From Rugalucina vietnamica (lineage: Eukaryota; Mollusca; Bivalvia; Lucinida; Lucinidae), in assembly GCA_964017185.1 (NCBI GenBank), contig OZ024884.1, positions 19,624,048 through 19,688,047 on the forward strand: DNA of 64,000 nucleotides, in the 5' to 3' direction. Positions 16,901-58,900 of this stretch are shown here, piece after piece (the stretch's first letter is position 1; each line of letters begins with the position of its first letter). The notes below the pieces were generated by a model. The model was not told where the DNA came from. It saw nothing but the letters and a program-made list of their open reading frames with translations, and did no database searches. The position numbers and the translations under genes were made by a program.

Positions 16901-19900
16901 ATTCATTTAGGAATTGAGTAAAGGCAAGAGTTCAGGACAGAATCAAGATCTGTGAAAACGAAAATGTGCTTATACTTTTTTTTTTCTTACCGCTCGCTTA
17001 TATTGATTGACTGATTGATTGATTGATTGATTACTTGCCTACAAACTCGCATTATGTATGTTCTTAGATGGAGCGGCACATTCATTCATGCCTGAGCATT
17101 GACCTATTATAAAAGATGCGCAATTACTTGTAGTGGTATATTGAAGTTCATTGAAAGTTGTGCTTCGACGGTAAAGAACATCGCAATTTAGCTTTAAAAT
17201 GGTATTTTCAACATTTTTCAAACATTTCATACTGCCGGGAGAATCAATTAGTAAAGTAACTGCATATGAAAGAAAACTGAAATTTTAGAGCTCTACAACT
17301 TTGACACACCAGGCAACTAAGGCTTTTTCAACGGGTGCCTCTACACCAAGTCGACAGTCAGCGACGTGCGTTCGCACATCCGCCTTTCGAAGGTATCGGT
17401 TTCGTAATCTTCGTTCAGATGGACTGCTATATGAGCCGCATCGTGAGAAAACGGGATTATTACCTATGCGAAAACAAAGGCGCAGATCAGCTTCGCGGTA
17501 ACCGCGAAGCTGATCAGCGCCTTTGTTTTCGCTACACGGATAGTACAATCCTTCTTCTTCTTAAATCCGAAATTTCAAGCTTCTAGCCATCTTCTGTGAC
17601 TGTACAGCCTGGTTTGTGTCAGACCTGGTCGTAACCCAAATTGTTGGTTTTCTCACGCACAGGCTCATATATGGATTGATCTGAGTTTTCACGGTACGCA
17701 AAGCCAAAATCATAGGCTTTGTCAAAGATCAGCTAAAATTGAATACTCAGGGTACCGTATCTGATTTCATGTCTTGACAAACCATCGAACCACCGACCAG
17801 AAACGTCCCACAATGCACCACAATTGAACAAAATGGGACTAGATAAGATAATAGTCTAGATTATCTTCCGATAACACAACACAAGGGTATCTTTGTGTCA
17901 AAAATTGTTTCCCAGTTCTATGGGTAATTAATTTTCAGTTGACGCTTGATTTACTATTTTGCGGGTAAATGAATATTCAATTGTCAACAAGTATAACATT
18001 ACGAGAAGGATGGACAGTTTTTTGTAACTGGTAAAACTTCGCAAATAGATTACACATGACATTTTCACACTAAACAACGACCACAGTCAATTTGTTCCCG
18101 CTAACTGGAAAGAATGAAAAAGAACTCTCACGCAAGAAACGTGCAGAAACGACGACCCGCCATATTGTAGTCAAAAAGAATTACCTGAGCCACCGCTTTG
18201 GAAAAGAGCTACACCCTCTGCCTATCAGTTTTGTTCTTATTGGTTTTAGATTATTATTCTTCATTTATAATTATCTACTATTTGTTACGACTTGTCCCGT
18301 TCCTGGTCCTTGCTTCGTTTTTATCGATTTAGTGAGGGCGAATTACATACGAGCCCGTACCCGACGACAGCAAATGACATTTTACAAAAAAAAGCAATTG
18401 ATTCCGCCAAATATATAAGTTTATTGCCAGAACGAACATAATGTGTGTGTGTTCTGAATAGTCTCTGTCTTTTTTTTTTTAATCTCTGTTCGTTCGCATT
18501 GGTTTGCAGCCCTTTATTCTTTTTATGAAGCTTGGTTTGAACATTTCTGCGGTTGCCCGGCTGAGCAGCCTCGCGATTTTTTTTATTTTTGCGATATTTT
18601 TTACTTGTGTAAGGTTTCATCAAAATTACTGCCTGACAAAAAAGTTCATCTTCCGATTGTGAAATGATTCGGAAATAAAAAGATGTTCATTGAAAGTCAA
18701 GATTCCGAGTTTAATTGAATGAAGTGAACTATATAAATGTTTAGTACCCTACATAACGCCTTGTTAAACATGTTTTGTCACCAGTGCAACGGTTGAATGC
18801 TCTTAGTTAGGAGCCCCATATTTTATGGGTGTTTAATGGTTTTACTTTCTGTATCATATGTACGAAGCAGCAACATTTTTGAAATGAATACAACACTGAC
18901 GTAATCATAAAATGTGCTAGTGAGTTTGAAACTATTGCCCTACAAGGTTGTCAACGAACTCTCAAACCATATAGGAAGTGTGTGCACGTGGCGTTCTAAG
19001 AGGCAGGCTCGAGCCCTTACATACCATTGACCCACTTTGTACCAACCATACTATTCAGTAAAATGAACATTCCAGGCCATAAAACAAGTTGCAACTCTTT
19101 TGTGTTACGCTACGGCAGTGACGCGCTGTAGAGGGGACCATAGATCTACATCTATTTCTAAAGCAGTGAACGTCTATATGAAATAAAGAAACGTCGTCTT
19201 TCGTCAATCAGTTTGTGGCGTGCTTAGTGGGGTAAAGCAGAATTCACATGTTTGCATCAACATGTTTTAAACTTTTTTGTTCGATTTGCAGGTTACAAAG
19301 AGTCAGCGTTCGCCTACGCCATTTCAGCCGCAGGAGTCACCCACCAGGTGGCGAAAGCGTGCAGTATGGGAAAACTCAAGTCGTGTGGGTGTGACATGTC
19401 CATGCAGGGTGAGGTCAAGGAGAAGTTCGAGTGGGGCGGGTGTAGCCACAATGTTGAGTTCGGGATCAAGTATGCCAAGCGGTTCACGAATGCGCGGGAA
19501 AATGCACGAGATATACATGCCCGGATTAATCTCCATAACAACAGGGCCGGTCGTCTGGTAGGTTACTAGTGATATTATTATACTGCTCAACATTATTTAA
19601 GCAATGTCGAACTGTCCACCAGTCACTATGATAGTCAGTTGCTTGTACGAGTTAAATACTTGTTGTTAACGGTAGCTAATGTAGTGTTTCATGTCACGGA
19701 GCCACAGCTTTCTGGGTGATAACCGGCACTATGGGAGTTAATGCGCCTTCATCTAGGAGAAAATCCTGTGACATTAAATAGTTACGGATATAAAGCACAG
19801 CACTTTTACAAGACCTTGGATTATTTCGTATTCCGATTAAAAACTGCCTAGGTATGTGGTCATACGCATTTACTAGAAACACGAATGTGCTTTCATGTTA

Positions 19901-21950
19901 ATGAAGAAAAATAATTAGCACGAAATATGTTTCTCCAAATTATCAGAAAGTACATTGTATAAGCCAGCTCGCAAGAACCCCAATCATGGGATTTTCTGGG
20001 CGAACAGACTTTCGTCTAACAATCTCAAGAGATCAACAAATACAAACAACGAGACGCTTCTAAAGGTTTTGTGTTTCATACCAAAGTAATGTGTCACTGT
20101 TGCCACTAGTGCTATCACTGGTGAGACCTTTGTTGTTTAAAAGAGCTCGTTTTCAAACGTTTGTTTTTTCCTTCTTCATTAATCTAATCTATGCTAATTT
20201 AGTACTTCGAAAAAATGCTTTTCCCAAAATTAATTTGGAAAAAAGTAGGTCGTCTCTAAATTGCCCCACTGGTCTGAATATTTTACCACATAAGAATAAC
20301 ACAGTCATTAATAAGTGACCTTAATCGCGATATTAACCCATATTCGACGAATGGATTTTCCCATCATTATCATTTGGGTCAGTCCACTTTCATTATTAGG
20401 GACATCAAGAGTTATTTTGAATTTTTATTCCATATATTTTATATGAGTTTATTGCTTTCAACTCCGTTCGGTTTTATTTCTGGAGGGGAAAAAAACCCAA
20501 AAAACCAAAACGAAATACTCGTACAATTCTCTTCACTGTTAGGCTTTTCTTTACCATGTCAGTGAACTTACATGCTAGATAATAAGGCTGCTCACCACCA
20601 TGTATACTTCTTTTATTTTTGTACTGATTTTAAAAAAGCTGCAACTTGAAACAAACGGACAGCTTTGACCACAAGAAAAGTTATTGTTGCATCTGCGCAG
20701 TCTGATCACAATCAGTATTACTTGTAAACAATCTGGCTTTCAATTTTGCAGAATAAATGATTATCTGGATTTTCCCCACCATGTATAACAATATTTATTT
20801 TCAGGCTATACTCCACAACGTTAAGAAGCAGTGTAAATGTCACGGTATGTCGGGGAGCTGTGAGATCAAAACATGTTGGAAAGTCGCCCCAGATTTCAGG
20901 AAAGTCGGAGATATACTCAAAAAGAGATTTCATAAAGCGGCGAAGGTAAGAAAACGTAATTAGATTTAACAGAGTTGTTACTTATTTGATTGCCTTCTGT
21001 AAAAGATGCGGTTTTAAACCAGGCTCCGGTAAAATAAAAATATGCTCATCTGAGATTAAAATTTATCATGTTCGTAAATGTTAAAATGCCACCAATTAAC
21101 ATTTATTAGCAGGATGATTTACATACTTTGGTGATCTAAACCTGAAACTTCAATTTAGTAATCATGAGCAGTTTAAATTTCAGTTTTAGGAATCAGATTC
21201 ATTCCTGTTACGAATAAGTGCCCGGTATGGAACACTAGGATCGCAGGGATTTTGGCATCAATATCCGCGTATAATGAAAGGAGTGACAAAAATGTATTCA
21301 AGTTGACGTAAAAGACTTGGTAAATCACCCTGCTCACCTGAGGTCACGATATTCGTTACGATTTTAATCAAGCAAATTAGCCACCTCGTGGGAAAAGTAA
21401 CAATGTGGTTTCCGAACAGGTCTGACACAAACCGGCCTGGGCAGTCATAGAAGCAGGCTGGAAGCTTGAATTTTGGATTTAGAAAGTAGAGGAATTGAAC
21501 TATCCGTGTAGCGAAAACAAAGGCGCTGATCAGCTTCGCGGTTACCGCGAAGCTGATCTGCGTCTTTGTTTCCGCATATGCAGATTGTTGGTTTTCTCAT
21601 GAGGAGGCTCAAATAATGTTTTACTTTTGCAGGTAAATCTGAACAACTACGCTGACAGCCGTTCAAAAAGACGCTTAATTCGAAAGCAACCAAGAAAACG
21701 ATTGTTATTCTACGAGAAGTCTCCAAATTTCTGTGACCCTAACCCTAAAGTAGACTCACCGGGTACAACCGGGCGCTTCTGTAACAAGACTAGTAAAGGG
21801 ACGGATAATTGTGAAACGCTGTGTTGTGGGCGGGGTTACAATACGCTGCGCGTGAAACGGTCGGAGAGGTGTAACTGTAAATTTCATTGGTGTTGTTATG
21901 TGGTGTGTCAGACTTGTACATACAACGAATGGGTGACGGTATGCAAATGA
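7752..21950 (+). CDS. Wnt10: Wnt10 secreted signalling protein, five coding exons
   Basis: Joined CDS: 7752-7990, 15248-15516, 19292-19557, 20805-20945, 21633-21950, all with GT-AG borders and agreeing phases (2, 1, 0, 0), giving 410 residues, close to the usual Wnt10 length. Wnts are secreted, lipid-modified ligands for Frizzled/LRP receptors. Wnt10-type features: SNNILQL...[10 protein letters not shown] near the mature N-terminus, WNCSSLE (N-glycosylation site), RESAFAY-like KESAFAY block, CGCD, EWGGCS, DIHAR-LHNN, the CHGMSGSC motif with the serine expected to carry palmitoleate (about residue 274), and a cysteine-rich end FHWCCYVVC...TVCK. The loop between CGCD and EWGGC is much shorter than in the vertebrate proteins I know. 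Introns contain MITEs, SINE pieces, a CpG-rich element and an antisense peptide gene. The start codon is the least certain point. Confidence 0.93.
7991..9381. other. Wnt10 intron 1, first part
   Basis: AT-rich intron sequence with no gene or repeat that I can support. Confidence 0.6.
9382..9842 (-). CDS. secreted eight-cysteine peptide, macin-like, two exons
   Basis: On the minus strand, ATG at 9842 opens a 13-nt coding exon (9842-9830) with donor gtaaga. After a 101-bp intron and acceptor tttacag, the second exon runs 9728-9382 and ends TAA. The phases fit and give 119 residues starting [20 protein letters not shown], a clear signal peptide. The mature part has eight cysteines spaced C-x6-C-x19-C-x3-C-x9-C-x6-C-x8-C-x-C. 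The CxxxC, Gly-x-Cys and CxC signature is that of cysteine-stabilised alpha-beta peptides, and the overall spacing plus the leading Gly-Asp-Cys matches the macin antimicrobial family of annelids and molluscs. The tryptophans typical of macins after the first cysteine are missing, so this is a divergent member or a look-alike. It lies antisense inside Wnt10 intron 1. A SINE ends about 25 bp upstream of the ATG, so the promoter or leader may lie in or beyond it. Role in innate defence is inferred. Confidence 0.55.
9868..10045 (-). mobile_element. tRNA-derived SINE
   Basis: The minus strand has a diverged B box (ggtttcgatcc, one extra T) and ends with the family tail ...gttgactgggg near 9868. 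It shares cagtcaacaatttttcactg, gagttaatgc and gctcaagacacaacacggtg with the copy at 42630-42805. Confidence 0.7.
10046..11517. other. Wnt10 intron 1, middle part
   Basis: No recognised gene. An 88-codon open frame (+, 10613-10879, ATG start) has no family that I recognise and no splice or expression support, so I do not call it as a gene. Confidence 0.5.
11518..12175. mobile_element. CpG-rich element with terminal inverted repeats
   Basis: The ends are inverted copies: agcagtcacac-atc-agcgtat at 11518-11538 and atacgct-aca-gtgtgactgct at 12155-12175. The inside is packed with short CpG words (cgcgcgt, tacgcccggcgcgcg, acgcgc) in an otherwise AT-rich intron, and the end phrase gtgtgactgcta also occurs internally near 12054. 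No long coding frame. It resembles the element at 54079-54793 in build but not in wording. Confidence 0.6.
12539..12760 (+). mobile_element. MITE-B foldback copy
   Basis: It starts gaaaacatgcccatgca and contains a perfect palindrome around cgttagaaccgcctcg/cgaggcggttctaacg at about 12646-12676, then ggtgtatccctgca and cccagtttt. The right terminus seen in other copies (acatgttttc) is lost. Confidence 0.7.
12761..15247. other. Wnt10 intron 1, last part
   Basis: No gene supported. A SINE tail fragment (ccccagtcaac...catgtcgggac) lies at about 14109-14165. Confidence 0.6.
14109..14165 (-). mobile_element. SINE 3' fragment
   Basis: ccccagtcaac and catgtcgggac match the tails of the SINE copies at 9868 and 42630; the tRNA-like head is absent. 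Confidence 0.55.
15248..15516 (+). CDS. Wnt10: Wnt10 exon 2
   Basis: Acceptor ccgttttccag before 15248 and donor gtaggt at 15517. It encodes [19 protein letters not shown] through [11 protein letters not shown], with [17 protein letters not shown] and WNCSSLE, both highly conserved in Wnt10. It ends in phase 1, which exon 3 completes as Gly. Confidence 0.95.
15517..17432. other. Wnt10 intron 2, first part
   Basis: No gene seen. A (GATT)n tract sits at about 17002-17034. Confidence 0.6.
17433..17666 (+). mobile_element. MITE-A, 234 bp, ATAT duplication
   Basis: Starts gagccgcatcgtgagaaaac and ends ttctcacgcacaggctc, flanked by ATAT on both sides (17429-17432 and 17667-17670). Central perfect palindrome cagcttcgcggt-aaccgcgaagctg. 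It lies in Wnt10 intron 2. Confidence 0.93.
17667..19291. other. Wnt10 intron 2, second part
   Basis: No gene or clear repeat supported. Confidence 0.6.
19292..19557 (+). CDS. Wnt10: Wnt10 exon 3
   Basis: Acceptor tcgatttgcag and donor gtaggt. It encodes [20 protein letters not shown] through HNNRAGRL, containing [21 protein letters not shown] and [13 protein letters not shown]. It ends in phase 0. Confidence 0.96.
19558..20804. other. Wnt10 intron 3
   Basis: No gene. A diverged SINE piece (ggagccacagctttctgggt ... gggagttaatgcgcctt) lies at about 19698-19750. Confidence 0.55.
20805..20945 (+). CDS. Wnt10: Wnt10 exon 4
   Basis: Acceptor tttattttcag and donor gtaaga; 47 codons, phase 0 at both ends. 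It holds the lipidation loop [16 protein letters not shown]. Confidence 0.97.
21040..21118. mobile_element. diverged fragment of foldback element C
   Basis: tgctcatctgag and cgtaaatgttaaaatgccac followed by aacatttattagcaggat match the palindromic element at 42982-43212 with a damaged centre. Confidence 0.55.
21378..21610 (-). mobile_element. MITE-A, AAAT duplication, next to Wnt10 exon 5
   Basis: Reverse orientation, 233 bp, flanked by AAAT at 21374-21377 and 21611-21614. Palindrome cagcttcgcggttaccgcga. Its end is 22 bp upstream of the last Wnt10 exon, inside the usual branch-point and pyrimidine zone. Confidence 0.93.
21633..21950 (+). CDS. Wnt10: Wnt10 exon 5 (last)
   Basis: Acceptor acttttgcag; 105 codons plus TGA at 21948-21950. 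It begins [14 protein letters not shown], a basic linker, then [15 protein letters not shown], the [20 protein letters not shown] block and the terminal cysteine cluster. A MITE-A copy ends 22 bp before the exon. Confidence 0.96.
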
Positions 21951-22245: not shown

Positions 22246-22479
22246 GAGCCGCCTCGTGGGAAAACCAACAATGTGGTTTCCGAACAGGTTCGACACAAAC
22301 CGACCTGTACAAGCACAGAAAATAACTAGAAGCTTGAAATTTCGGATTTAAGTAGAAGAGGAATTGTACTATCCGAGTAGCGAAAACAAAGGCGCTGATC
22401 AGCTTCGCGGTTACCGCGAAGCTGATCTGCGTCTTTGTTTTCGCATATGCAGATTGTTGGTTTTCCCATGAGGCGGCTC
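22246..22479 (-). mobile_element. MITE-A, 234 bp, AAAT duplication
   Basis: Complete copy with AAAT at 22242-22245 and 22480-22483. It lies 0.3 kb after the Wnt10 stop and would be in the 3' UTR if the polyadenylation signal at 22971 is used. Confidence 0.94.
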
Positions 22480-22976: not shown

Positions 22977-25167
22977 CCAGTGGTGTATAGTTGTAATAAA
23001 TTACTTTGATGAGACTAAGCTTTAATAATTTCGGATCCAAAAGATACGATACGCCACCAGGCGGCAATCTTGAACTGACAATTTTAACAGAATTTCCAAC
23101 TGCCAAAACAACGTTTTCGATTGTCAAAATGTGTTTTAGACAATCTAAACTTTTAAATTTGCGTCCTGGCGATCTAAAACGCATGTTTGGCAATCGAGAA
23201 CGATTCTTGTAAAATTGTTTGTTCTGCTTACACTCAAAGGACTTGACGCACATTGTTTTAAGCTGTTACCCATATGTTTTGATTTAAGAAAAGACCTGTA
23301 GAAACAAACACCAGAAAAGCATAGGCCATTGTTCACCGTTCTCTGCTCTGCTTTGCAATATTGCTTTCCATCTCCAGATTGAATGATTAAAACTTTGGTT
23401 TATTGACAACAGTGTATGAATGTGCATGTCCGTCACGTGAAATTGAAATTTTATCTCATTTGTAGCAATCAAAACAACAATCAAATGCAACTTTTCTATT
23501 TCTGCGTGATTAAAAGACAAACAACTGCAAATAACCTGTATTCTGAAAACTTTTTAGATCAATGTTTCTAAGAATACCTAAGAACATCACCGGATTTGCT
23601 GTATGCGGATAGATCATTTCTCTATTTTAGCTGTGTTCCATTTCGCTACTTGCACTTGTTTCTCGTAGAATATGTTCCTATACATAATTGATGATTTTAG
23701 CTCATATAACGACTTTTCTTGGCCATTTTGAATTAAGAAGAAACGAGCAACATCATGTTACGCTATATTTGACACCAAGCAACACGCATAGACGAAAACA
23801 AAGGCGCAGATCAGATGTACAGTGACTCCACACTTGATCATCGCCTTCGTTACCGCTTCAGGATAGTATAATCCCTCTTAATAATATCATGAATTATCTG
23901 AGAGGACCAAAAATACATAGGCCGTTCCTGTACCCATCTCAGAATGGGATGAAAGTTTCACAGAATGATCATTACCACCAACAACTAAGGTATTTCCAGT
24001 AAAATAAACGATTGCTCCCTTCGTTGCCATGGCAACCGCAAATAATTTTCATGGCAAAAATAGTCATACATGCCAAAAAAGAAGCGTTTAGTCTGATATT
24101 AATCAAACGTTATTTAAAAGACAAAACTACTTGTATGCTGCCAAAGGCGATAACTCTTCCATACTTGATGAAAATTGAAAGAAAACTAAGTGTGAGAAAA
24201 TTTCTAAGGATCATGTCCGCACGACGCCGTCTCACAAAAGCATAATTGTTAAGATAGTCGCATATATGCAAGACAGTCGCATATATGCAAACATTTAAGT
24301 TTCTGTGAAGAACTCTAGGAACTATGATTTAGCTACCCGATTCTTCTTTCTAACATATTTGTCTAAGTCTCAGATAATTCTGTCAATATTTTATCTTATC
24401 ATTCAGGCTTATCGTATCCATGCAGCATGATTGTATCTACCTTAATGAAAATAAATGGGTATCAATGAAAACAGGTATACCTTATAACATGCTAAAACAA
24501 TATAGAGCCAGCTCAGTATGCGCAAAATTATTCGACTCGCTTATTTCATATGCAATAGAATTGGTAAATTTTAAAAATTGATAGTTTGCCTACCGAACCC
24601 AGATTCACAATTTGTTATGTTTTCAATCATATCCAGTTCAACTTGCATCCAACGTGTTCAAAATCAGATACCATGTAAGATGCTATGCAAAAAGCTTGTT
24701 AGAATATAGTCCGTTCGTCTGTGTTACGATATTCTCTAGCTTATCGCTCTGTATGGTCGGAACATACACTAAAACTTTTAAGTTTTAAAGCGTTAAAAAT
24801 TAAAACCTGCCAGTTAAATAAGGATACACGTATAATGAAAGGTATGTTACATTAACACATTCTTAGCAAATCTCTCAAGAATTTCTTTTATTTAAACACG
24901 GGGTATTTTCGTCAAGATTGTGGCCATAAATTTTATCGACTGATGCTTAAAACTCTATGAATTAACGAGAAGTTCCTATATAAGTCCATCTTTTATTCAT
25001 ACCCAAAGAGAAGCAGAAAATCATCAGACAGGTCAATATTTTATGTCAATACGAACGTACATATATGAATTTCGAGTAAATGTTTTCTTAGATGAAAGTA
25101 AGTAGCGTTTATCTCTAAAATGCTGCTTGTAGTCTGTTCAGTTCTTTTGAATTAATATTTAAGAAAT
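22977..25167. other. intergenic stretch between Wnt10 and the glycosyltransferase
   Basis: No gene seen. A degraded MITE-A core (gacgaaaacaaaggcgcaga ... cttgatcatcgccttcgtta) lies at about 23792-23880. The 15-bp phrase agtcgcatatatgca is duplicated near 24257 and 24275. Confidence 0.55.
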
Positions 25168-25374
25168 GAGCCTGTGCGTGAGAGAACCAACAATTTGGGT
25201 TCCCCACCAGGTCTGACACAAACCCGCCTGTACAGTCTTAGAACAAGGATAGTAGCTTGAAAATTTGGATTTAGATAGTAGAGGAATTAGTCTATTCGAG
25301 TAGCGAAAACAAATGGGTGATCTGCGTATTTGTTTTTGCATATGCAGATTGTTGGTTTTCCCATTGGGCGGCTC
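25168..25374 (-). mobile_element. MITE-A with deleted hairpin arm, AAAT duplication
   Basis: 207 bp instead of about 234. AAAT flanks at 25164-25167 and 25375-25378. The central palindrome is mostly lost (aaacaaatgggtgatctgcg), leaving both termini intact. Confidence 0.9.
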
Positions 25375-25972: not shown

Positions 25973-27657
25973 ATGGTTCTAAGACTAAAATTTAGGACTC
26001 GAGTGTTTATAGTGAGTTCATTATGTGTTCTTGCCTTTCTGACCATTCTTTACGACGTCGCAGCGTTCTGTACTCTTAATAAGATAAATTCTGGAAATTT
26101 AGTAATGAAAAATGTTGTTGAAACTCAAAATGACTTAGATATAAAGCGTGAATTAGACGACATACATGCCAAAAAAGTTCTACATGAATTTGGAGGAATG
26201 GTTGAAACGGATCTAAATGCTTTGGTCAAAGCAAATGTGCATAACACAGTGCATTATGTGTGGTGCCCAAACAAAACTATAGAATTTACACAATATCTCG
26301 GCATTCTTAGCATTTGGAAGATTTTACAGCCAGATATTTTTGAATTTCATCACCAGTTTCGGATAAATATAACAACTGGATAGACGAGTTACAGAAAGTA
26401 ATTCCAGCTTTCGTCACCAAGTCCCTCCCATTACACTGGGATGGGAGTGAACGAGGGTGTGGCTTCTGGTTTGGATTGGCTGTGCTGGATGATAGAGGTG
26501 GGGTTTATGTCGGAAAGGACGTTTTGTTGACTAATCATATTCTTTCTGAGAGACAGAAAAACTTTTCAGTAATATTCATGACGACAAATTCTAAAACGGA
26601 TGTTGCATTTGCAATGGCAAGTCAGTATGACAAGGATCTTAAACAATTCAAGAAAACTTTTGCCCAAACATTTGAACCGAAGGAACAAAGGTTCTGTCCA
26701 AATTTGAATGACCCTTCAGTTAACCAAACTAAAACTCCTTGCATTAAAATGGATGCCTCTCTACATCCCAAAGATTTATGGGAACTCAATTCTCTTTTTG
26801 GTGCCGAGACCAGGATATTATTATATGGATCACCGAAAATAAAACTGCCAAGACCAATATTACCTGAATTTATTCCAAAAATAGTCCATTATGTTTGGTT
26901 TGGAGAAAAAGAAATGGATTTTATGATGTATCTGAGTATTTTAAGTGCACTCTTTATTCTTAAACCAGAGTTAATATTTATTCATGGTGATGGTGGATTA
27001 CATGGCAAATATCTTGATTTGGCAAAAAGAGATAAAAGGGTAAAATTCGTATATCGTGAAAGACCATATCACATATTTGGAAAAGATATATTTTACAGGC
27101 AACATAGAAGTGATGTTGTGAGGGCAGATGTTTTATTAAAATATGGTGGTATATACATGGATTGGGACGTTCTGTGGTTAAAAGACCCATCAAATATCAT
27201 TTCTAAAGGGTATGATGCGGTAGCAAACGTTGATCATATGCCTCAGCCTGGTTTTCCAGATACAATTAATTTAGGAGTATTCATGGCAAAACCAAAATCA
27301 ACATTTGTCAAACGGTGGCAAGATGCTCTAGTAGACTACAGATCAAGAGATTTTCTGTATAATGCTATTGAACTTCCATACAAAATTTATGAGAAATATC
27401 CAGAATATTTGTACATTGAAAGAAGACTCCAAGTCATGTGCTTTCGTTTAAAATGCCATCCAGCATTTCAACCCAATTTTAAACTATTTATGGAAGAACA
27501 ACCATTTGACTGGCGGAAAGATGTTTATTCCATTCATTTTACATACCCAGATCCTGATGAATTTAAATCAGAGGAACAGTGCAGAAATGGAACTGGAAGG
27601 TTTGCCGAAATTGGTAAATTTATTCTTCAACACGAAGAAAAACTGATCAAACTGTAA
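25973..27657 (+). CDS. GT32-like glycosyltransferase, tandem domains, one frame break
   Basis: ATG at 25973 opens a frame with a membrane anchor at about residues 11-30, typical of a type II Golgi transferase. The first domain begins VHYVWCPNK and continues to a stop at 26381-26383. The rest continues in another frame, open from 26344, through to TAA at 27655-27657, so a net one-base loss or two-base gain lies in about 26344-26383. The second domain starts IPKIVHYVWFG near 26874 and has VVRADVLLKYGGIYMDWDVL, with the DxD that binds nucleotide-sugar and metal. This is the glycosyltransferase sugar-binding DXD family, which includes alpha-1,4-galactosyl- and GlcNAc-transferases. The first domain keeps the VHYVW start but has GGVYVGKDVLL where the DxD should be, so it looks inactive. 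No intron interrupts the coding part. Substrate unknown. The break may be a sequencing error, an allele or early decay. Confidence 0.75.
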
Positions 27658-28514: not shown

Positions 28515-30952
28515 TAGCTCACCTGAGCCGTTAGGCTCACAAGGTGAGCTTATAGGATGGCCATGATCCGGCGTCCGTCCGTCGTCCATCGTCCCTCCGT
28601 CCGTCCGTCCACAATTTCAAAGATCTTCTTCTCTGAAATCGCTTGGCCAACCAAAGCCAAATTTTATATGAAGCATCTATAGGAAGGGGGAACCAATGTG
28701 TATATAAGAAATCCTGGTCACATGACCAAGATGGCCACCATGCCCATATATGGTAAAAACCCTTCAAAAATCTTCTTCTCCAGAACCAGTGGACTGATTT
28801 CAACGAAACTTGGCATGAAGCATCTATGGCTCAAGCACTACAATGTGTATATAAATCATGACCCTGTGATGACCTTGACCTGTTTTACGGCAAGGTCAAC
28901 ATAGGTCGCCAATGCATTTGAATGGGGAAAACTTTTAAAATGTCATTTAAAGTCAAAGTCTTGCAGGAAATGGGCAGTAGGACTGAATATTAATGATTCT
29001 GACAAAAATTGGACCTCAGGGGCTCATATGCCCCCACCCCGGGGCGATATACATGTATATTACCATAATATTCAAACATCATCTCCTCTGAAACCGCTTG
29101 GCCAATCAAAGCCAAATTTTATGTGAAGCATCAATAGGAAGAGGTAATTAATGTATATATAAATAATCCAGGTCACATGACCAAGATGGCCGCCATGCCC
29201 ATATATGGTAAAACCCCTGCAAAAATCTTCTTCTCTAGAACCAGTGGACTGATTTCAACGAAACTTGCATGAAGCATCGATGGCTCAAGCACTACAATGT
29301 ATTTATAAATCATGACCCTGTGATGACCTTGACCTGTTTTACGGCAAGGTCAACATAGGTCGCCAATGCATTTGAATGGGGAAAACTTTTAAAATGTCAT
29401 TTAAAGACAAAGTCTTGCAGGAAATGGGCAGTAGGACTGAATATTAATGATTCTGAAAAAAAATTGGACCCTAGGGGCTCATATGCCCCCATCCCGGGGC
29501 AATATACATGTATATTACCATAGTATTCAAGCATCATCTCCTTTGAAACCGCTTTGCCAATCAAAGCCAAATTTTATGTGAAGCATCAATAGGAAGAGGT
29601 TATTAATGTACATATAAATAATCCAGGTCACATGACCAAGATGGCCGCAATGCCCATATATGGTAAAAACCCTTCAAAAATCTTCTCCAGAATCAGTGGA
29701 TCGATTTCAAAGAAACTTGGCATGAAGCATCGATGGCTCAAGTACTACAATGTCTATATAAATCCTGACCCTGTGATGACCTTGACCTTTTTTACGGCAA
29801 GGTCAACATAGGTCGCCAATGCATTTGAATAGGGAAAACTTTTAAAATGTCAATTAAAAGGATAGTCTTGCAGGAAATGGGCAGTAGGACTGAATATTAA
29901 TGATTTTGACAAAAATTGGACCCCAGGGGCTCATCTGCCCCCACCCCGGGGCAATATACATGAATATTACCATAATATTCAAACATCTTCTCCTCTGAAA
30001 CCGCTTGGCGAATCAAAGCTAAATTTTATGTGAAGCATCTATGGAATGGGGGAATTAATGTATATATAAATATTATCTAGTTCACATGACCAAGATGGCT
30101 GCCATGCCCATATATGGTAAAAACCCTTCAAAAATTTTCTTCTCCGAATCTGGTGGACCGATTTCAAAGAAACTTGGCATGAAGCACCAATGGCTGAAGT
30201 ACTACAATGTATATATAAATCATGACCCTGTGGTGACCTTGACCTATTTTACGACAAGGTCAACATAGGTCGCCAATGCATTGGAATGGGGAAAACTTTT
30301 AAAAAGTCATTTGAGGTGAAAATCTTGCAGGAAATGGGTAGTAGGACCAAATATTAATGATTCTGAAAAAAAAATTGGACCTTAAGGCTCATATGCCCAC
30401 ACCCTGGGGCAATATACATGTATTTTACCATAATATTCAAACATCTTCTCCTCTGAAACCACTTGGCCAATTGAAGCTAAATTTTATGTGAGGCATCTAT
30501 AGGATGGGGGAACCAATGTATATATTATTAATGTAGGTCACATGACCAAGAGGGAGGCCATGCCCATTTATGGTAAAAACCCTTCAAATATCTTCTTCTC
30601 TGAAACCAATAGATTGATTTCAACGAAACTTGGCGTGAAGCATCCATGGCTAAAGTACTACAATAAATATATAAATCATGACCCTGTGATGACCTTGACC
30701 AAGTTTATGGCAAGGTCAACATGGGTTGCCCATGCATTTGAATGGGAAAAACTGTAAAAATGTCATTTGAAGGGAAAAACCAGCAAGAAATTGGCAAATG
30801 GACAGAATATTGATTATTCTGAAAAAAGAAAAACGACCCAGGGTCTTCATAAGCCCCTGCACTGGGGTTAAATACCATAATATTCAAACATGTTTATTGG
30901 TATATGCAGCAGACTCAGGTGAGCGTTTACAGGACCATTGGTCCTCTGGTTA
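28515..30952 (+). mobile_element. Helitron2/HINE-like element with five tandem units of about 455 bp
   Basis: The left end is tttttagctcacctgag. Near the right end the inverted phrase ctcaggtgagc is followed by a hairpin aggaccattggtcct and CTGG, then a host T. The opposite-strand copy at 59497-61020 shares the same ends. Subterminal inverted repeats, a 3' hairpin and no target duplication fit non-autonomous Helitron2/Helentron-type elements. Inside, the phrase catgaccaagatgg recurs at about 28721, 29177, 29632, 30084 and 30540. No transposition protein is encoded. Each unit contains tgaccctgtgatgacct (see findings). Confidence 0.7.
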
Positions 30953-33209: not shown

Positions 33210-33345
33210 GTGATCAGGGCCTTTGTTTCCGCTACTCGGATAGTGCTGTTCCCCCTCTTCTTAAATCTAAAATTTCAGGTTCTATCCATCATCAGCGACT
33301 GTACAGGCTGGTTTGTGTCAGAACTGGTCGGGAACTATGCGGACC
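33210..33345 (+). mobile_element. MITE-A right-hand fragment
   Basis: tgatcagggcctttgtttcc, ctactcggatagtgctg and ggctggtttgtgtcagaact match the second half of MITE-A; the left half is missing. Confidence 0.75.
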
Positions 33346-34565: not shown

Positions 34566-34795
34566 GAGCCGCCTCATAAGAAAAAAAAAACAATCTGCAT
34601 ATGCGAAACCAAAAGCGCTGATCAGCTTCGCCGTATCTGCGAAGCTGATCAGCGCCCTTGTTTACGCCATATGGAACGTACAATTTGTCTACTTTCTAAA
34701 TCCAAAATTTCCAGCCTCTAGCCAACTTCTGTGCTTGAACAGCCTGGTTTGTGTCGGACCTGTTCGGAAACACATTGTTGGTTTTCTTACGAGAC
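34566..34795 (+). mobile_element. MITE-A, ATTT duplication
   Basis: Starts gagccgcctcataag, ends gttttcttacgagac (a few terminal bases deleted), flanked by ATTT at 34562-34565 and 34796-34799. The palindrome has a mismatch (cagcttcgccgtatctgcga). Confidence 0.9.
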
Positions 34796-41676: not shown

Positions 41677-41911
41677 TAGCCGTGATGCGAGAAGACCTGT
41701 TTTCAGGATTTCCGAACCAGTCCGACACAAACTGGGCTGTTCCGACAAAGAAAATGGCCAGAGGCTTGGAATGTCGTATTTAGGATAAAGAGTCATTATA
41801 TTATCTGTGTAGTGAAAACAAAGGCGCTGATCATCTTCGCGGTTACCGCGAAGCTGATCTGGGCCTCTGTTTTCGCACATGCAAAAAGCTGTTTTTCTCG
41901 CGTTGCGGCTC
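41677..41911 (-). mobile_element. MITE-A, ATTT duplication
   Basis: 235 bp, flanked by ATTT at 41673-41676 and 41912-41915; ends ctcgcgttgcggctc. The palindrome has one mismatch (gatcatcttcgcggttaccg). Confidence 0.92.
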
Positions 41912-44595: not shown

Positions 44596-44829
44596 GAGCC
44601 GCCCCATGGGAAAACCAACAATCTGCATTGGCGAAAACAAAGGCGCAGATCAGCTTCGCGGTAATCGCGAAGCTGATCAGCGCCTTTGTTTTCGCTACTC
44701 GGATAGTACAATTCCTCCTCTACTTAACCCCAAAATTTCAAGCTTCTAGCTCTTTTCTGTGACTGTACATGTCGGTTTGTGTCGGACCTCGTCAGAAACC
44801 ACATTGTTGGTTTTCCCACGAGGCGGCTC
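44596..44829 (+). mobile_element. MITE-A, 234 bp, AAAT duplication
   Basis: Complete copy; AAAT at 44592-44595 and 44830-44833; palindrome cagcttcgcggtaatcgcga (one mismatch). First of five copies in the same orientation downstream of topoisomerase II. Confidence 0.94.
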
Positions 44830-45257: not shown

Positions 45258-45495
45258 GAGCCGACCCATGGAAAAACCAACAATCTGCATAGGCGAAAAC
45301 AAAGGCGAAGATCAGCTTTGCAGTAACTACGAAGCTGATCAGCGCCTTTTTTTTTTTTCGCTACATGGATAGTACAATTCCTCTACATTCTAAATCCAAA
45401 ATTTCCCGTCTCCAGCCATCTTCTGTGCTTGTACAGCTCGGTTTGTGTCAGACCTTGTCAGAAACCACATTGTTGGTTTTTCCACGAGGTGGCTC
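45258..45495 (+). mobile_element. MITE-A, flanks AAAC/AAAT
   Basis: Complete copy; palindrome cagctttgcagtaactacga with mismatches and a poly-T expansion in the right arm. The flanking tetramers differ by one base. Confidence 0.88.
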
Positions 45496-45612: not shown

Positions 45613-45847
45613 GAGCCGCCGAATGGGAAAACCAACAATCTGTATAGGCGAAAACAAAGACGCAGATGAGCTTCGCGGTAAAACGCGAAGCTGATCAGCG
45701 CCTTTGTTTTCGCTACTCGGATAGTACAATTCCTCTTCTACTTAAATCCGAAAATTCAAGTCTCTAGCCATCTTCTGTGAGTGCACAGACCGGTTTGTGT
45801 CAGACCTGTTCGGAAACCACATTGTTGGTTTTCCCACGAGGTGGCTC
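45613..45847 (+). mobile_element. MITE-A, AATT duplication
   Basis: 235 bp; AATT at 45609-45612 and 45848-45851. Confidence 0.93.
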
Positions 45848-46069: not shown

Positions 46070-46303
46070 GAGCCGCCTCATGAGAAAACCAACATTTCGC
46101 ATTTGCGAAAACAAAGGCGCAGATCAGCTTTGCAGTAACTGCGAAGCTGATCAGCACCTTTGTTTTCTCTACACGGGTAGTACAATTCCTCTACTTTCTA
46201 AATGCAAAATTTCCAGCCTCGAACCATCTTCGGTGCCTGTACAGCCTGGTTTGTGTCGAACCTGTTCGGAAACCATATTGTTGGTTTTCTCATGAGGCGA
46301 TTC
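46070..46303 (+). mobile_element. MITE-A, AATT duplication
   Basis: 234 bp; AATT at 46066-46069 and 46304-46307; the palindrome is intermediate (cagctttgcagtaactgcga). Confidence 0.93.
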
Positions 46304-46496: not shown

Positions 46497-46731
46497 GAGC
46501 TGTGACATGAGAAAACCAGATTTTTGCCTATATGAGAACAAAGGCACAGATCAGCTGTGCAGTAACTGCACAGCTGATCAGCACCTTTGTTTTCACTGAA
46601 CAGATAGTGCAATTCCTCTTCTACTTAAATCCAAACATCCCAGCTTCTAGCCTTCTTCTATAAGTGTACAGACAGGTTTGTGTTGGATCTGTTATGAAAT
46701 CCCGAAGACCGGTTTTCTAGTGTCACGGCTC
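46497..46731 (+). mobile_element. MITE-A, ATAT duplication
   Basis: 235 bp; ATAT at 46493-46496 and 46732-46735; perfect palindrome of the cagctgtgcagt/actgcacagctg type. It ends 27 bp beyond the topoisomerase II stop, so it must lie in its 3' UTR or immediate flank. Confidence 0.94.
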
Positions 46732-46757
46732 ATATGATTTTGAGATTCTCATTCCTT

Positions 46758-49900: not shown

Positions 49901-52900
49901 ACAGGATAAATTTTAGTCTTAGCCCTTGGGGCCTGGTCAAGATCAGATAATTATGAGGTCTTGGTAATCACCCCTGACTGTATCAGACTAACACTATTAA
50001 TTACAGTACTTGACTGTAAACATTTTTAAAATTTCAACTCATAGCTGAAAAAAAAAAAAAAATCAAATCTATCTAGCCTTGCATTTTTTCTGCGAGAAAA
50101 ACTTTGAGAAATTTCTATAGACTAATGCCTACTATGTTTTGAGCCGGAGTCGGACTGTTTATCATTCTCCGTTGACTGTGACGTAGCTCCCGTGTCAGAT
50201 TTCTGTCCTGTTATCTTGAGCCAGTCATCCTCGGAAATATTGCTGAGATCACGTGGGGCCTCATTTTTGTCCTCGTCCTCTGAGTCTGAATCTATCAATG
50301 CTGCTGACTTCTTCGCTGTAGGCTTCCTGGGTTAGAAATTAATTTGGTATCAAGTTACATTTAAATGGACTAGTCCAAAGAACGTTACAAGCCAGCTGTT
50401 TTCTACTGAGACAAAATAGTCCAAAAGCATTCAGAGTTCAAACCACTGTCTATTACAGTCACATTTTTGTTTGACCTGGTATGAAACCTTGACATTTGAG
50501 CCACCATATGGGAAAATCAACAATCTGCTTAGACGAAAACAAAGGCGCAGATCAGCTTCGCAGTTACTGCGAAGCTGATCAGCGCCTTTGTTTGCGCTAC
50601 ACGGATAGTACACTTCCTCTTCTACTTAAATCCGAAATTTCAAGATTCTAGCTCTTTTCTGTGCTTGTACAGGCCGGTTTGTGTCGGACCTGTTCGGAAA
50701 CCACATTGTTGGTTTTCCCACGTGGCGGCTCATTTCTTTTTTTTTCCTCAACATCCCTTTCAGAGGCAGATTACCAGTACTCAAAGCATATTCTTTCAAC
50801 ATTTACAGCACTTGATCACTTTGGCAGTGGAAGTTTTATTTCTTTTCTTTGACACCAGTCCAATTTTAAATCACAGAAAATCAAATATTTTCACTTGTTC
50901 ATTGGCCGACCCAAGTGCTTTCTGTTTTCAAATGACTTAGCTCACATTTAACAGTAACCCATCTTCTACATCAATAGAGCCGCATCATGAGAAAACCAGA
51001 CTTTTGCATATGCAAATACAAAGGCACAGATCAGCTGTGCAGTAACTGCACAGCTGATCAGCGCCTTTGTTTTCGCTACACGGATAGTACAATTCCTCCT
51101 TTACCTATTTCTAAAATTTCAAGCTTCTATCCTTCTTCTATGACTGTACAGGCCGGTTTGTGTCAGACCTTGTCGGAAACCCCGAATATCAGTTTTCTCG
51201 CGTTGCAGCCCACTTACTTTGCGGCTGCTGCTTTCTTGGCAGCTGGAGCTTTTTTCTTCTTCTTGACACCAAAGTCGGAGTCACTATCTGAGTGAGATAT
51301 TTTTACTGATTCGTCGTCGGAGTCAATTGTAACTGGCTTCTTGGCTGGAGGTTTCCTGCAATGAGAAAATATTCAGCTTTAATGAGAAAATATTCTGTTT
51401 CAATGAGAAAATAAGCTTCAATGAGAAAATATTCTGTTTCAATGAGAAAATATTCTGTTTCAATGAGAAAATATTCTGTTTCAATGAAAAAATATTCAAA
51501 CTTTTGCAAACATGTGCAATGCAAATATGTACTTAGCCTGTGGTACATAAATTTAAGCTATCAATGTTTATGTACTTTATCTTCTTTTGATGTTACTGAG
51601 CTGTTACGCAAGGACAGTCACCCATTTCCAGGGATTTCTACACCACAATGATGTACCTTGAATTAAAATCTTGTCAATTCTGCACCTATATCTAGACTAT
51701 ACTGAATCACTTTCTTTGCACAAGAGCATGATAGCCTGCCTGATGGTTCAAGTTCAGACCATATTGAGAGGTTGGGTTTCTAAACCCACTTTTCTTGAGC
51801 AACACATTTAAATGTCATAGTACTGTAAATACCTTGGAAGTATTAACACCAACGACAGATTAACCACTTACTTTGCAGCGGCTGGCTTCTTGGCAGCAGG
51901 TGCCTTTTTCTTCTTTTTGGCTCCAAAGTCAGAGTCATTATCCGAATCTGACATTTTAAATGATTCTTCATCTGACTTGGTCTCAGGAGTCACCGGTTTC
52001 TTAGCAGCAGGTTTCCTGGAACAATTGAGCCGCGACGTGAGAAAACCAGTCTTCGGGGTTTCCGACCAGGTCCGACACAAACCGACCTGTACCAGCTCAG
52101 AAAAGAGCTAGAAGCTTGAAATTTCGGATTTAAGTAGATGAGGAATTGTACTATCCGAGTAGCGAAAATAAAGGCGCTGATCAGCTTCGCAGTTACTGCG
52201 AAGCTGATCTGCGCCTTTGTTTTCGCATAGGCAATAATCCCGTTTTCTCACGATGCGGCTCAATTCATGCATACAATGTACCTTGATTGGCTTAAATCAT
52301 TGCTTTATGTTTTAACAATATAGGCCATTTTTTCGATGGACAATTAATCATACTATGCCTGGGTTAACAAACATGGACCAACCTTTTTAAATTGAACATA
52401 ATTGCACAGGTCTTAAATCACACAAGGATCTGAATCTAAAAGATATTCATGATATAAAACTTAACACAAATTTTCAACCACCAAATCATGCCTTTTAGCG
52501 ACGCAGATATCTTACTTTGTGTCATAACAGGGCCCTTCTCTGCACTGAAATCTTCATCAGACCCCGTTATCTTGAATTCAGGCTTGCTTGACATTGAACC
52601 GTTGAAAATATTGTCCACCAGCATATTTATCTTTTTTTTCTGGACACTATTTTTTCCACAATTTCAGCAATATCTTACTTTATCAATGCCATTACAGGGG
52701 CCTTCTTTTTCTTTGCACCAAAATCTTCATCATCATCTGACCCTGACATCTTGAAGGATTCATCGTCAGACTTTGACTTAGTCGACGTTGGCCCATTGAC
52801 TTCCATAGGTTCATCGTCGTCATTGTCACTCTTGATTTCATCTTCATTGTCGAAGTCATACTTCACCTTTGTAGCTGAAGACCAATGAGATAATTAAGCC

Positions 52901-55900
52901 CCCTTTTTAATAACAATGACATGCGACAGTTTGTGACAAGATAAAATCATATCCAAAGTATTGCAAAACATTCCCAGTATTGTCTGCCATGGGCAGGTTT
53001 AATGTCCAGGGGCCAGTTTCCAAAACTTCATTAGCTTAACACTGTCGTTAAGCCCTCAATTTGTTAACTATATATCGACTTCAAAAGCAAATACCCTGTT
53101 ATTTTTTGTTGCAACGCAAAGGATTCTCACATATTTTCAACAAAAAATAACAATGTATTTGTAATACTGCCATTTGAAATTTTAACAAATTGTTAACCAC
53201 ATCGTTAATTTTGAACTAGGCCCAAATCAACTTTTTTTTCAATAATGTCTGGCAAGAGCCATCGTTTCCTATTACCAATGCTATGGAGATTTATAAATTA
53301 CAAAACCCAGAGCTGGTGGGGTTAAAATGTTCTACCATCAGGCCACTGCCCTCACTAAACTGGTCTAAATCCTGTTGGGAGGTGTTCGTGTGATTCACCT
53401 CTTATAGAACAAGTCTTTCTAAATTTCCAAGTAGAACAAGTTAATAACCCAAAAGTAAACAGTTCTGATTCTTAACCTACCTGCCTGTCGTCTTGGACCC
53501 CTCTCCCGTGGAATGAAATTCTCCATGAAGCTGCCATCCATCTCATTGTCTGACAAGTCACTGTTTGCGGCATCAGACCCTTCTGATTCGTCAGACCAGG
53601 GGTTCTTCTTCTTGCCGCCCTTCTTTTTAGGGGATTTCTTTTCTGCGGAGGACTTTTTCTCAGCCTTGGGAGCTGTGAAATCAAGGAATAATCACATATA
53701 AATTCGTCTCAGCATGAAAAAAGGGACAATTTGGGCTTCTGACCAGTTCATCTCCTTTACTTCATCTCTACACTGAGTTTCTGAAGCCACTGGGGTTATC
53801 CAGAGAAACAAACATTAGGGTGAAATCAAAGTATAATATATGGCTCTGACCAGCTCCGACACAAACCGGCCTGTGCAGTCACAGAAGCTGGTTAGAAGCT
53901 TGAAATTTCAGATTTAAGTAGAAGAGGGATTGTGCTACCTATGTAGCGAAAACAAAGGCCCTGATCAGATATGCAGTTTCTGTACAGCTGATCTGCACCT
54001 TTGTTTTCGCCTAAGCATGTTGTTGATTTTCTTATGCTGCGGCACAACTACTTTTCAATGGTATATAGCTATAGCTAGTATCTCACTGGCATGCGAATTT
54101 CTCGCGACTGTTTTGCGAATTTTGTCGCGGGATTTTCGCACGACATTCGTGCGAGTGTCGAGCGAGTGTCGTGAGAATTTTTTGTGTCGCGAACTAGTCG
54201 CGAACTGGTCGCGAAGTTTTTCAACATGTTGAAAATTTTTATGCGAATTTTTTCTCCAAAATATTTCGCAAGACTGTCGCGCGACAGTCGTGCGACGGTC
54301 GCGCGACGTTCGTGCGAGTGTCGCGAACTTGTCGCCGCGAAATTTTGGCGAATTTACAATGCGAAATTTTCGCGACACTCGTACGAATGTCGCGCGAGTG
54401 TCGCACGACGGTCGCGCGACAGTCTTGCGAAAACCTCGCGACTATCTGGCGAGAAAATAAAACTAAGCGACATTCGTACGACAGTCGCGCGACACTCGCA
54501 CGAATGTCGCGCGACTGTCGTACGAATTTAAATGAAAATAAGTTACATTCGCGGGAAAGTCGTGAGACACTCTCACGAATGTCGCGCGACTGTCGTGCGA
54601 CAGTCGCGCGACTATCGCGCGACAGTCGCGCGATATATTTTCAAAATTAGACCGAAATTCGCGAATTTGTCGCAAAAATGTCTATTCAATGAGACTGCAA
54701 CGTGAAAGTTGTGTTTATATCGTTTATCTTTGTCGCGAAATAGTCGCGAACTATTCGCGAACTAGTCTCCAGTTGTCGCATTCCAGTGAGATAGGGGCTT
54801 ATGGCATAAATGAAATATATTCACAGATGTTTTATTCTGTGTTGGTTTAAACCAACACTGGTTAATTGATAGATTTCTATTTTCTATTACTAGCCCAACA
54901 TTGTACCATACAAAATACTATTTTTCTTTATTCATATATATTGACCATGCAAGACGCTAATGACCCATTATGGTTGATGTATCATTTAATAAAGAATTCT
55001 TACCTTTAGCAGCTTTCGGCTTCTTTTCCTTAGCTGCCCCACCCTTCAGGGCTTCCACAGGACTTCCTTTAAGTTTGAGACGGTCAGCCAGTGACATTGG
55101 CTCATTGCTGTCTTCATCCTCCATCTTGACAAAGTCTAGAATGTTGCCTTCTTTACCATCTTTCTTATCCTGAAGAAAGCATGTTATGTTTACATTCCAC
55201 TCAACAGCATTGGTGATATCAGGACAGTCAGTTACCGTGCTGTTCTTGGGCAAGCCTTCCAGAGACAGATAAACTGAACCAAGTGTTCAGCTCTTTTACT
55301 ATTAACTGACAAATGCTCTTCTTTAATCAGCAGAAGAGGAAGAATGGCTTTAGAAATATTTTAATTACTATACTACATGAATGAAGTCAGAAATGGGGAG
55401 AAAAGTTTATTGAATAAATCAATGATACAATGTACATGTAAAGGACTCCGACTGATAACCAGTCATCATCTTTTCCCATTTACTGACACTATGCTGGATA
55501 CAAGAATTAAGACCGAAGACCTCTAATTTACAAGCCAAGACAGACTACTGCCTTTATTATCTGGACCACTAACATTTATTAGTGAGCCGTGTTACTATAT
55601 AAATTCTAAAGGGGAAAAACTCATTGTACAAAAAAAATCGATATAAACCCATACTTTTAACTTTTGTTTCTTGATAGCTTCCTTTTCGGCTTTCACCTTC
55701 ATCGCCGAGTCCACCCTGGGCACGATTCTCCTTCCCAGAGGTGAGGGCATGGCATCCTGGACAACCTTCTTGGGTCTGGCTTTACCCTTGATCAGTTTGT
55801 TGGGCTTAAGGGTACCCATTTCATCCTCTCTTTCTTGCTGCTCGACTTTCTAGGGAATTTGTGAATGTGCAATTAGCTACTTGGTATTCACTGCTACAGT

Positions 55901-58900
55901 TATGAAGTTTCGATAGTCTTATTCACACTATAAACTGAAACAACTATGTTTTTGCAATGAATTTGAAAGATAGAATGTTCACCTACTGTAAATTAAACAA
56001 CAAACTCCAAATAGAATCTTAATTCCAGAAATAATTTGATACTCTTTTAAAAAGCATTTTGGATTAAGAAAGCATACATGTTTTATATACTATTTCAGCT
56101 AAATTTACTATGCATATCTAATGCAGCATAAACAGAGAAACTGATCAGCTATGCTATCACTTCACAGCTGATCTGTACCTCTGTATTTGTATGACAAAAC
56201 TTGTGAAGTGACTTACATCTAGCTCTGTCAAGAACAGTTCTAGATCATCCTTCCACAAGTCACTGGGAGACTTCTTGCGTAGATCTGTCAATTCCTTGGC
56301 CTAGAAAACAAAACACAAATCATGGTTAACAATTTATATGTTGTTTTATGGTAGCTGACATCAACCGTAACATGTTTACACAAAGACGTGTTTTGAACGC
56401 GACCGTCACATTGATCAGGTGCCGGAGGCGTGAAACTTTATAGCATGTCTAATTTGCATTGGGACAACACCGTTAATTTGAGTAATTCCTATCTTGATTG
56501 GAGATAATTGATTCTTGGAGCTAATAAACAACAAAGCCAAGGTAAAGATGGGAATTTTGGGACGTCTCAGGGCGAAAAAATCTTGCATCCCGTGAAATAT
56601 CTCTTGGCAGAATCATGCGTCCGCATCCTGGGACGCCGAATCTGGCGTCCTCGAGATCTCTGACTCTACCTACCCACTGCACTACCTTCCCTCTAACCAT
56701 CTATTTTGGTACAGATGAAGATTGATTGATAAGATCGGCATACGGTGGTCCAGAATGCAGCCCTAACCTAACCCCCATAACACTATACTAATAATTGAAC
56801 CCACATCAAAAGCTATTTTCTTTACCTTTTCATCCCTCTTCTTGCACAATTCTTCTTTCTTTTCTTTTGTGAGATTGTAGATTGGCATACTGAGAATGTA
56901 GTTGAAGTCTGGCCCTGAATCTGTCTCTTCCTCATTGTCAGAGTTGTTCAGATCATCGTCAATCACCTACAAGCATTTACAATTGAGCCTTTGCTTGAGA
57001 AAACCAACAATTTGGGTTTCTGATCAGGTCCAACACAAACCAGCCTGTATAGTCACATAAGTTATTAAGATAGCTAGAGGTTTGAAATTTCGGCTGAAGG
57101 AAGAAGAGGGATTGTACTATCCATTTAGCGAAAACAAAGGCGCAGATCAGCTTCGCGGTTACCGCAAAGCTGATCTGCATCTTTGTTTTTGCATATGCAA
57201 ATTGTTGTTTTTTCCCATGCAGCGGCTCAATTTCAATTCATTAATCTGCTACCAACAATTAAGGATGTGTGTTGATCAATGCATTCACTCTTATTTGTTT
57301 GAACTCGGGGACTAGCAAAGTTTCCTTGCCAAAGATCACACATAGGCATGCAATCAATATCATTTGAGAAGTGGTGTTGAAATTGAAAACAGAAATGCAT
57401 TGGTGAATAAAGATTTAACAATTATTCTTGCATAGATATCTATGCGCATAGCTGTTTGAAGTCGTTTTCGATTGGTCGAAAGCTGTGTTCAAACAGCAAA
57501 ACCCATGTTCAAATAATGAAATTCACGTGCCGTTTGAACATGGGTTTTGGCCGACGTCATTGGTCAATGCGACAAGACGTCATGTGTTTCGTAGAAACAA
57601 AATGGCCGACGGTGAAGAAGCTCCGCGGTTTTCTGTCAGTTTTTACGTTGTTAATGTTATTTTCATGAGATTTTAAGTGGATTGGAGTGAAAATGCAAGA
57701 ATAGCGATCAACCATGGTTTGTTTCAGTGTTCAAACATTCGCTGGATCACTCGGTAGGTGTTTGAACACGCGGCCTGCGGCCTTGTGTTCAAACACCTTC
57801 CTCGTGATCCATCGGATGTTTGAACACTGAAAACCATGGTTGATCCCTATATTATCTGATTTAAATGCAAGAAATAGATTGCACAGCTTGTTATCTTTTG
57901 CAAAGAAACTTCGTGCTTCATCACCGCAGAGGCGGATCCAGGATATCCAGAAGGGGGATTCAAACCCATCACAAGAGGGATCATTTTCGACATTTTACCT
58001 GATTTACCCATGAAATCGAACCACTGAGTTAGCCGATGTGGTGAAGCTTGCCTCTGTGAATCTGACACATTACCAACCAAGCTACAGCAACCGGCATGAT
58101 TTACATTTGACAATGACTTTCATTTGAGGCTAAACATCTAATAGCACTAAATGGCACACAAACTTTGTAGTGCAAAGCAAAGCAGAGCTTAACATGTATC
58201 TATGAAAATGTTGGCAAAATAGTTTTGCTTCAATAAAGCATGATATGCCGCACAAGTTTACACCATGATTCACCAACTGATAATACAATATTCAATGAAA
58301 TGATGCATGATTTAGCAACATGATTTTCAAACTTTTACGTTCTTGAATGACGTATGAAGTGCATGACTTTAAGCTACTCAATGTTCACAATCAATAATGT
58401 CTCTGACTTCTGAAATCTTGTGGATGAAATGATGCATGACTTTACAAATTATACAAAACAACAGTCATGCTTTCTCTTACCCCTCGTTTATCACCATTTT
58501 TATCCTGGTTGCAAGAGTTGTAAAAGATTTTTACATACAATAAAATTACAGATATTTTTAGCCATGGGTGTCTTAACTCAAAACTTGAAGATCAATATCT
58601 ACTTTACACATATATTCCTGGCTTATCAAAATGTAATACACTATCAAAATAATAAGCTTAATCTGCCATAGGGTGTATGGCTTACAAGTTCTTTTTACTG
58701 TTTTTTTCCACTAAGGTCATACATTTAGAAAATTTAAATGTAGTGCTGCTATAGAAGAATAATGTTATTGCAATGACTATAATACTGACCTTTCCCTTAT
58801 TCTGAGCCTCTTTCCAAGCTTTGATGGGGTCGGAGTCGTACCCTCTCCTCACCAACACCTGGACAAGATCTTTCTTAGCCTTGTTTTCTATACAAAACAA

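Follow-up and report, generated by a model that had tools for sequence, protein, structure and literature searches.

The window, that is, the whole 64-kb stretch of DNA that was analysed (A+T = 63%), carries 22 clusters of a short repeat, MITE-A, which we located by BLAST with five window copies as queries. These clusters comprise the 13 copies listed in the original prediction and nine further copies or pieces; both BLAST and reading of the ends place the 13 in one repeat family at the positions given for them. Six copies on the plus strand pass the end criterion and have a perfect 4-bp target site duplication (TSD): 21378–21610 (AAAT), 22246–22479 (AAAT; the copy for which a fold was computed), 25168–25374 (AAAT; 207 bp, with an internal deletion), 41677–41911 (ATTT), 52027–52261 (AATT) and 56985–57228 (AATT). 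The same is true of five copies on the minus strand, 17433–17666 (ATAT), 44596–44829 (AAAT), 45613–45847 (AATT), 46497–46731 (ATAT) and 50498–50731 (ATTT). It should be noted that the copies at 21378 and 41677 begin with TAGCC, the first base being T. A perfect duplication combined with the end criterion was thus seen in 11 of 17 near-full window copies, always as AWWT, and the other six have none. Two of the 13 copies, both on the minus strand, fail the end criterion: the copy at 34566–34795 has lost its GGCTC end (GAGAC, then ATTT) and has ATTT on either side if the damaged right terminus GAGAC is accepted, while that at 46070–46303 ends in GATTC followed by AATT, which gives a TSD of AATT if this end is accepted. 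Identical AWWT flanks had been claimed for all 13 copies; this stands as perfect duplication for 11 and holds for 46070 and 34566 only if damaged ends are allowed.

The nine further copies and pieces were all found by BLAST. A copy with full ends at 45258–45495 (minus strand) is bordered by AAAC and AAAT, an imperfect duplication; the copy at 4700–4913 (minus) has a damaged end and fails the end criterion, and for that at 50974–51201 (minus) no duplication was found. The left end is lost in the plus-strand copies at 53845–54047 and at 61816 or 61821–62035. Partial copies lie on the minus strand at 33206 or 33211–33335, at 23786–23879 and, as a weak match, at 37159–37243; there is also a piece with a weak 62-base match from 56126. 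Read by eye, the partial pieces have the same GAGCC class of end or have lost their ends, and no second type of target was seen among them.

The consensus of MITE-A, built from 58 copies, is 234 bp long. Its ends, GAGCCGC..CGTGAGAAAACC, form an imperfect inverted repeat over the first 32 bases of either end, and its inner part includes a near-perfect palindrome of approximately 65 bases (approximately positions 135–199 of the consensus). For the copy at 22246, the computed single-stranded DNA fold has an energy of −82 kcal/mol, compared to a mean of −27 for shuffled sequences (z = −14.7, 200 shuffles). Scans of the window with Rfam and a tRNA search found nothing, so that the inner palindrome corresponds to no known RNA family at gathering thresholds. 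MITE-A has no evident coding capacity, and 234 bp is too short for any transposase. With its uniform short length, inverted ends, target site duplication and many copies, MITE-A is a MITE, a non-autonomous DNA transposon. In these respects the original prediction was right: the MITE character, the foldback structure, the uniform length of approximately 234 bp, the GAGCC...GGCTC ends, the 4-bp duplication and the preference for AWWT are all confirmed.

The family was then viewed on the scale of the assembly (1.09 Gb, 47 contigs). The exact 21-base end GAGCCGCMTCGTGAGAAAACC occurs 8,579 times (4,287 + 4,292), whereas the same sequence read backward, used as a control, does not occur at all. Counts of the exact end fall short of the size of the family, because a further 100 copies or pieces, all lacking the exact end, lie in approximately 266 kb beyond the window, or 3.8 per 10 kb, a density in which a few copies are counted twice (overlapping loci) and which may be inflated because the stretches were picked for the repeat. 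Since such stretches are possibly enriched, we can only guess that the family has on the order of 100,000 copies. Three samples, each with a different bias, were used for analysis of the flanks. Sample (a) is the window itself. Sample (b) consists of twenty 10-kb stretches of contig C1, each picked for a listed AWWT-flanked end; together with the window it includes 114 copies or pieces, of which 84 are near full length (4 of these 84 without recognisable ends), and in 58 the ends match at 9 or more of 10 bases. Sample (c) was blind to the flanks: it takes the end pattern at its first 30 places, whatever the flank (L023–L052), and seven of these copies also lie within the stretches of sample (b).

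The 4-bp target duplication of MITE-A is real. Of the 58 copies selected for matching ends (9 or more of 10 bases), 42 have a perfect 4-bp duplication and 16 have none. The flank-blind sample gives a perfect duplication in 22 of 30 copies and none in the other eight; the 22 include L052, in which the right end is weak (14 of 21 bases). The length of the duplication is well defined: a match in the 3-bp register was found in 1 of 58 copies, no copy matches in the 6- or 8-bp register, and the list of longest matches ends at 5. In a window with 63% A+T, one could suppose that the matches are chance tetramers in A/T-rich flanks, or that AWWT belongs to the true ends of the element. However, two random tetramers of the window match with a chance of only 0.0055, and when the compared windows are shifted outward by 1–5 bases, a match is seen in 0–1 of 58 copies, compared to 42 of 58 without the shift. 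Tetramers other than AWWT are duplicated as well, and sites that lack the insertion carry the tetramer once; we therefore consider this explanation highly improbable.

The sites without insertion come from a search in which the two flanks of each of 66 sites were joined and compared to all retrieved sequence; a few of the 66 represent the same locus twice. The insertion in L031, flanked by AAAT, faces a single AAAT in the relatives L011, L020 and L030, and the insertion in L052, flanked by CTAT, faces a single CTAT in L013 and at positions 38076–38255 of the window. For L045, whose site has ATAT, the related sequence in L047 (93% identity) reads ATCT; for the L009 and L021 sites, inspection revealed no clean empty site. 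The L052 site sits in a tandem satellite, of which the sequences in L013 and at 38076–38255 are further occurrences; other units of the satellite have CAAT or AAAT at this place.

The sequence of the target is a strong preference for AWWT, not a strict rule. The 42 perfect duplications are AAAT (13), ATAT (12), ATTT (11), AATT (4), AGAT (1) and TATT (1). When the 18 copies outside the window that contain the selection string for the stretches (AWWT plus the end) are dropped, 26 of 40 copies have a perfect duplication, and 24 of these 26 are AWWT; when both the string-selected copies and the window are dropped, the corresponding values are 16 of 29 and 14 of 16. In the flank-blind sample, 17 of the 22 perfect duplications are AWWT, and the other five are ATTC, ATGT, AGAT, GACT and CTAT; it is these five that argue against strictness. 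The same preference is seen in the complete set of exact ends, where AWWT directly precedes 6,186 of 8,579 (72%; 3,091 + 3,095, with 0 in the backward control), compared to 4.7% of the tetramers of the window (a base rate taken from the window). AWWT is its own reverse complement, and the agreement between the two strands is what is expected of a symmetrical target. The original prediction had described AWWT as strict, naming duplications outside AWWT as the observation that would count against it. For the sampled copies, comparison of the flanks upholds the duplication itself and the preference for AWWT; the strict form of the claim is contradicted by the five flank-blind duplications.

Clustering of 88 rows produced two main subfamilies, A1 with 46 rows and A2 with 28, other rows being outside the cut-off; in terms of the 81 distinct copies (88 rows less seven duplicate loci), A1 includes 42 and A2 includes 25. 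The median divergence of copies from their own consensus is 5.4% for A1 and 6.4% for A2. Between the two consensus sequences, 12 of 32 positions differ at the left end and 10 of 32 at the right end, whereas the core adjoining the right end differs at 3 of 118 positions. Each end was assigned to the nearer of the two consensus sequences, so that an intermediate end had to fall into one class or the other; assigned in this way, the two ends are of matching type in 78 of 81 distinct copies (A1 on both sides in 45, A2 on both sides in 33) and mixed in three. The window copy at 17433, which has one A2-type and one A1-type end, is among these three.

Such a concerted difference in the ends around a nearly constant core could mean that a stable core was re-capped, that is, that the A1 and A2 ends were gained by recombination with two related transposase-bearing families and that two enzymes serve one core. 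The contrast between ends and core and the matched end types speak for this, and a conserved core with variable ends is similarly described for CMITEs of corals (PMC2872659). Nevertheless, A1 and A2 agree in the GAGCCGC at their outer edge, in the GAGAAAACC or GGGAAAACC block and in their 4-bp target, so that a single enzyme could be enough for the two subfamilies; instead of being exchanged, the ends could have diverged under fast selection; assignment to the nearer consensus hides intermediate ends; and the left and right ends of A1 themselves differ at 9 of 32 positions. We consider recapping unlikely on balance. A fuller version, in which the conserved non-coding core swapped both terminal repeats together and, with its 65-base palindrome kept, became a passenger of two transposase lineages that are related and share AWWT as their target, appears somewhat less likely again. 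Recapping is compatible with a mover of the Sola2 type, which is our best explanation for MITE-A. The concerted difference between A1 and A2 ends is the part of these results most worth following, as it would be a test case for MITEs that switch enzymes around a fixed core.

A coding partner was sought in several ways. Inspection by eye of the 60 longest frames in the window and in 20 stretches of 10 kb recognised no coding element with MITE-A ends, and none was recognised at 13 solitary end-like sites outside known copies, several of which look like decayed copies. No exact copy of the 21-base end is present in viral_contigs, a collection from which records of the source genome are possibly omitted. 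We also searched for the family DUF7869 (PF25273), a domain of unknown function that is a possible candidate for a Sola transposase domain. The genome contains at least 144 matches (150 candidates were scored), compared to none in any of 14 control genomes; open frames of approximately 590 codons hold some of the matches, and further ones are apparently split over exons. This abundance and the variety of the frames suggest the presence of at least two kinds of uncharacterised coding repeat. In the 901 and 951 bases beside two DUF7869 loci, the sole GAGCC end marks the border of a decayed MITE-A-like copy: in L053, this copy (from position 269; approximately 76% identity over 95 bases) lies behind the end of a frame, and L054 has nothing resembling MITE-A ends. 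The DUF7869 exon in L055 has no tblastn relatives in viral_contigs or genome_contigs, where records of the source genome are possibly omitted. Nothing in the analysis ties DUF7869 to MITE-A.

Under the model that we favour, a transposase would recognise the inverted ends (GAGCCGC..CGTGAGAAAACC) by binding to them, cut out the unit of 234 bp and integrate it by a 4-base staggered cut into an A/T-rich tetramer, preferably AWWT; repair of the gaps would then produce the 4-bp duplication. Because MITE-A is without evident coding capacity, the enzyme would have to act in trans, and a Sola-superfamily transposase of the Sola2 type is its most likely source. The inverted ends, the foldback, the duplication, the empty sites, the AWWT preference and the thousands of exact ends were observed directly; cut-and-paste movement, mobilisation in trans and the Sola2 type are what we infer, and MITE-A is probably a non-autonomous cut-and-paste element moved by a Sola2-like transposase. 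It is solely the length and the sequence of the target that make Sola2 the most likely assignment: the 4-bp AWWT duplication characteristic of Sola2 is present in MITE-A as a preference (17 of the 22 flank-blind duplications; 6,186 of the 8,579 exact ends). The founding paper on Sola is reportedly that of Bao et al. 2009. There are other families with 4-bp duplications, such as Sola1 and Ginger, and the mover could belong to one of these superfamilies with A/T-rich 4-bp targets or to one not yet described. This possibility, to which we give distinctly less weight than to Sola2, gains from the fact that no partner element was found and the target rule alone points to Sola2, and from the DUF7869 matches, at least 144 in number, with their apparent diversity of uncharacterised coding repeats; on the other hand, no step considered here calls for a new enzyme, and the AWWT rule is already in print for Sola2 (PMC3627910).

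The original prediction could not place MITE-A in a known superfamily, but the published account of Sola2 supplies one: in PMC3627910, 4-bp duplications and short terminal inverted repeats are described for Sola2 elements of Dictyostelium fasciculatum (AWWT) and of Polysphondylium pallidum (ATAT, AAAT and ATTT). MITE families of insects are classed as Sola2 (iMITEdb, PMC5199201), and coding Sola2 elements are listed for bivalves (PMC10294476). Repbase places two non-autonomous elements with equally long TSDs in one superfamily if they align from position 1 to 11 with one mismatch (PMC4455052). With thousands of copies, some of them with empty sites, MITE-A makes a target preference measurable rather than asserted, and it constitutes a large natural insertion record for a transposase type that is probably poorly studied.

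Several known kinds of MITEs resemble MITE-A in being short and having inverted ends (piggyBac, Tc1/mariner and PIF/Harbinger), but their duplications differ. PIF/Harbinger elements duplicate TWA, and the duplications of hAT, MULE, Merlin and P elements are 7–12 bp long. The latter four were rejected as candidates (no match in the 6- or 8-bp register in 58 copies, the longest match being 5), as were Tc1/mariner and PIF/Harbinger (4-bp duplication in 42 of 58, 3-bp register in 1 of 58) and piggyBac or Kolobok (TTAA is absent from the perfect duplications, 42 in 58 copies and 22 in 30). For piggyBac and Tc1/mariner, the published duplications are TTAA and TA, respectively (PMC5199201). The CMITEs of corals are similar to MITE-A in that the core is more conserved than the terminal repeats; unlike MITE-A, they are approximately 100 bp long, duplicate TTAA and are linked to piggyBac-like elements (PMC2872659). 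The Sola2 MITEs of insects are, like MITE-A, short, non-coding and classed by TSD and terminal inverted repeats, although in a different host (iMITEdb, PMC5199201). The DFa and PPa families of Sola2 in amoebozoans share with MITE-A the AWWT 4-bp duplication and short inverted ends; however, they are kilobases long, compared to 234 bp, and a transposase is encoded by some of them (in DFa-2, one of 888 aa; PMC3627910), whereas MITE-A has no evident coding capacity. The AWWT target pattern has already been described for Sola2, and MITE-A is thus most likely an ordinary passenger of such machinery.

The domain of unknown function DUF7869 (PF25273) is multicopy in the Rugalucina vietnamica genome, in which it was found in at least 144 places; several of these are single open frames of approximately 590 codons, and in other places the frame is apparently divided among three exons. 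In a small piece taken beside one DUF7869 locus, there is a frame located downstream of the DUF7869 match, and its stop codon is immediately followed by a decayed copy (L053:269-455) that resembles MITE-A, the non-coding foldback family of approximately 234 bp. Another MITE-A copy, also outside the window, is in two parts (L005:3935-4723), with the break at approximately consensus position 104. The interrupting insertion, of approximately 555 bases, is different from MITE-A; its ends resemble an inverted repeat that starts with CAGCCCCTTTCACTC.

The window contains a 437-codon open frame (26344-27654), a 393-aa part of which has matches to Gly_transf_sug (PF04488) and Nucleotid_trans (PF03407), both above cut-offs; no PDB relative of this part was found at E 0.001.

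Several types of short and tandem repeats are present in the window as well. Degenerate CG-rich repeats of 11 bases, of the GTCGCGCGACA type (54363-54655, repeat family D15), are located in A/T-rich surroundings. A unit of approximately 455 bases is present in about five tandem copies at 28549-30932 (families D4 and D6), and a 128-base unit forms a tandem array at 38763-40109 (D1 and D10). A tandem repeat with a unit of approximately 178-180 bases occupies 38087-38611 and 40396-40562; elsewhere in the genome, at one of 30 MITE-A loci sampled without regard to flanks (L052), this same satellite is interrupted by MITE-A at CTAT.
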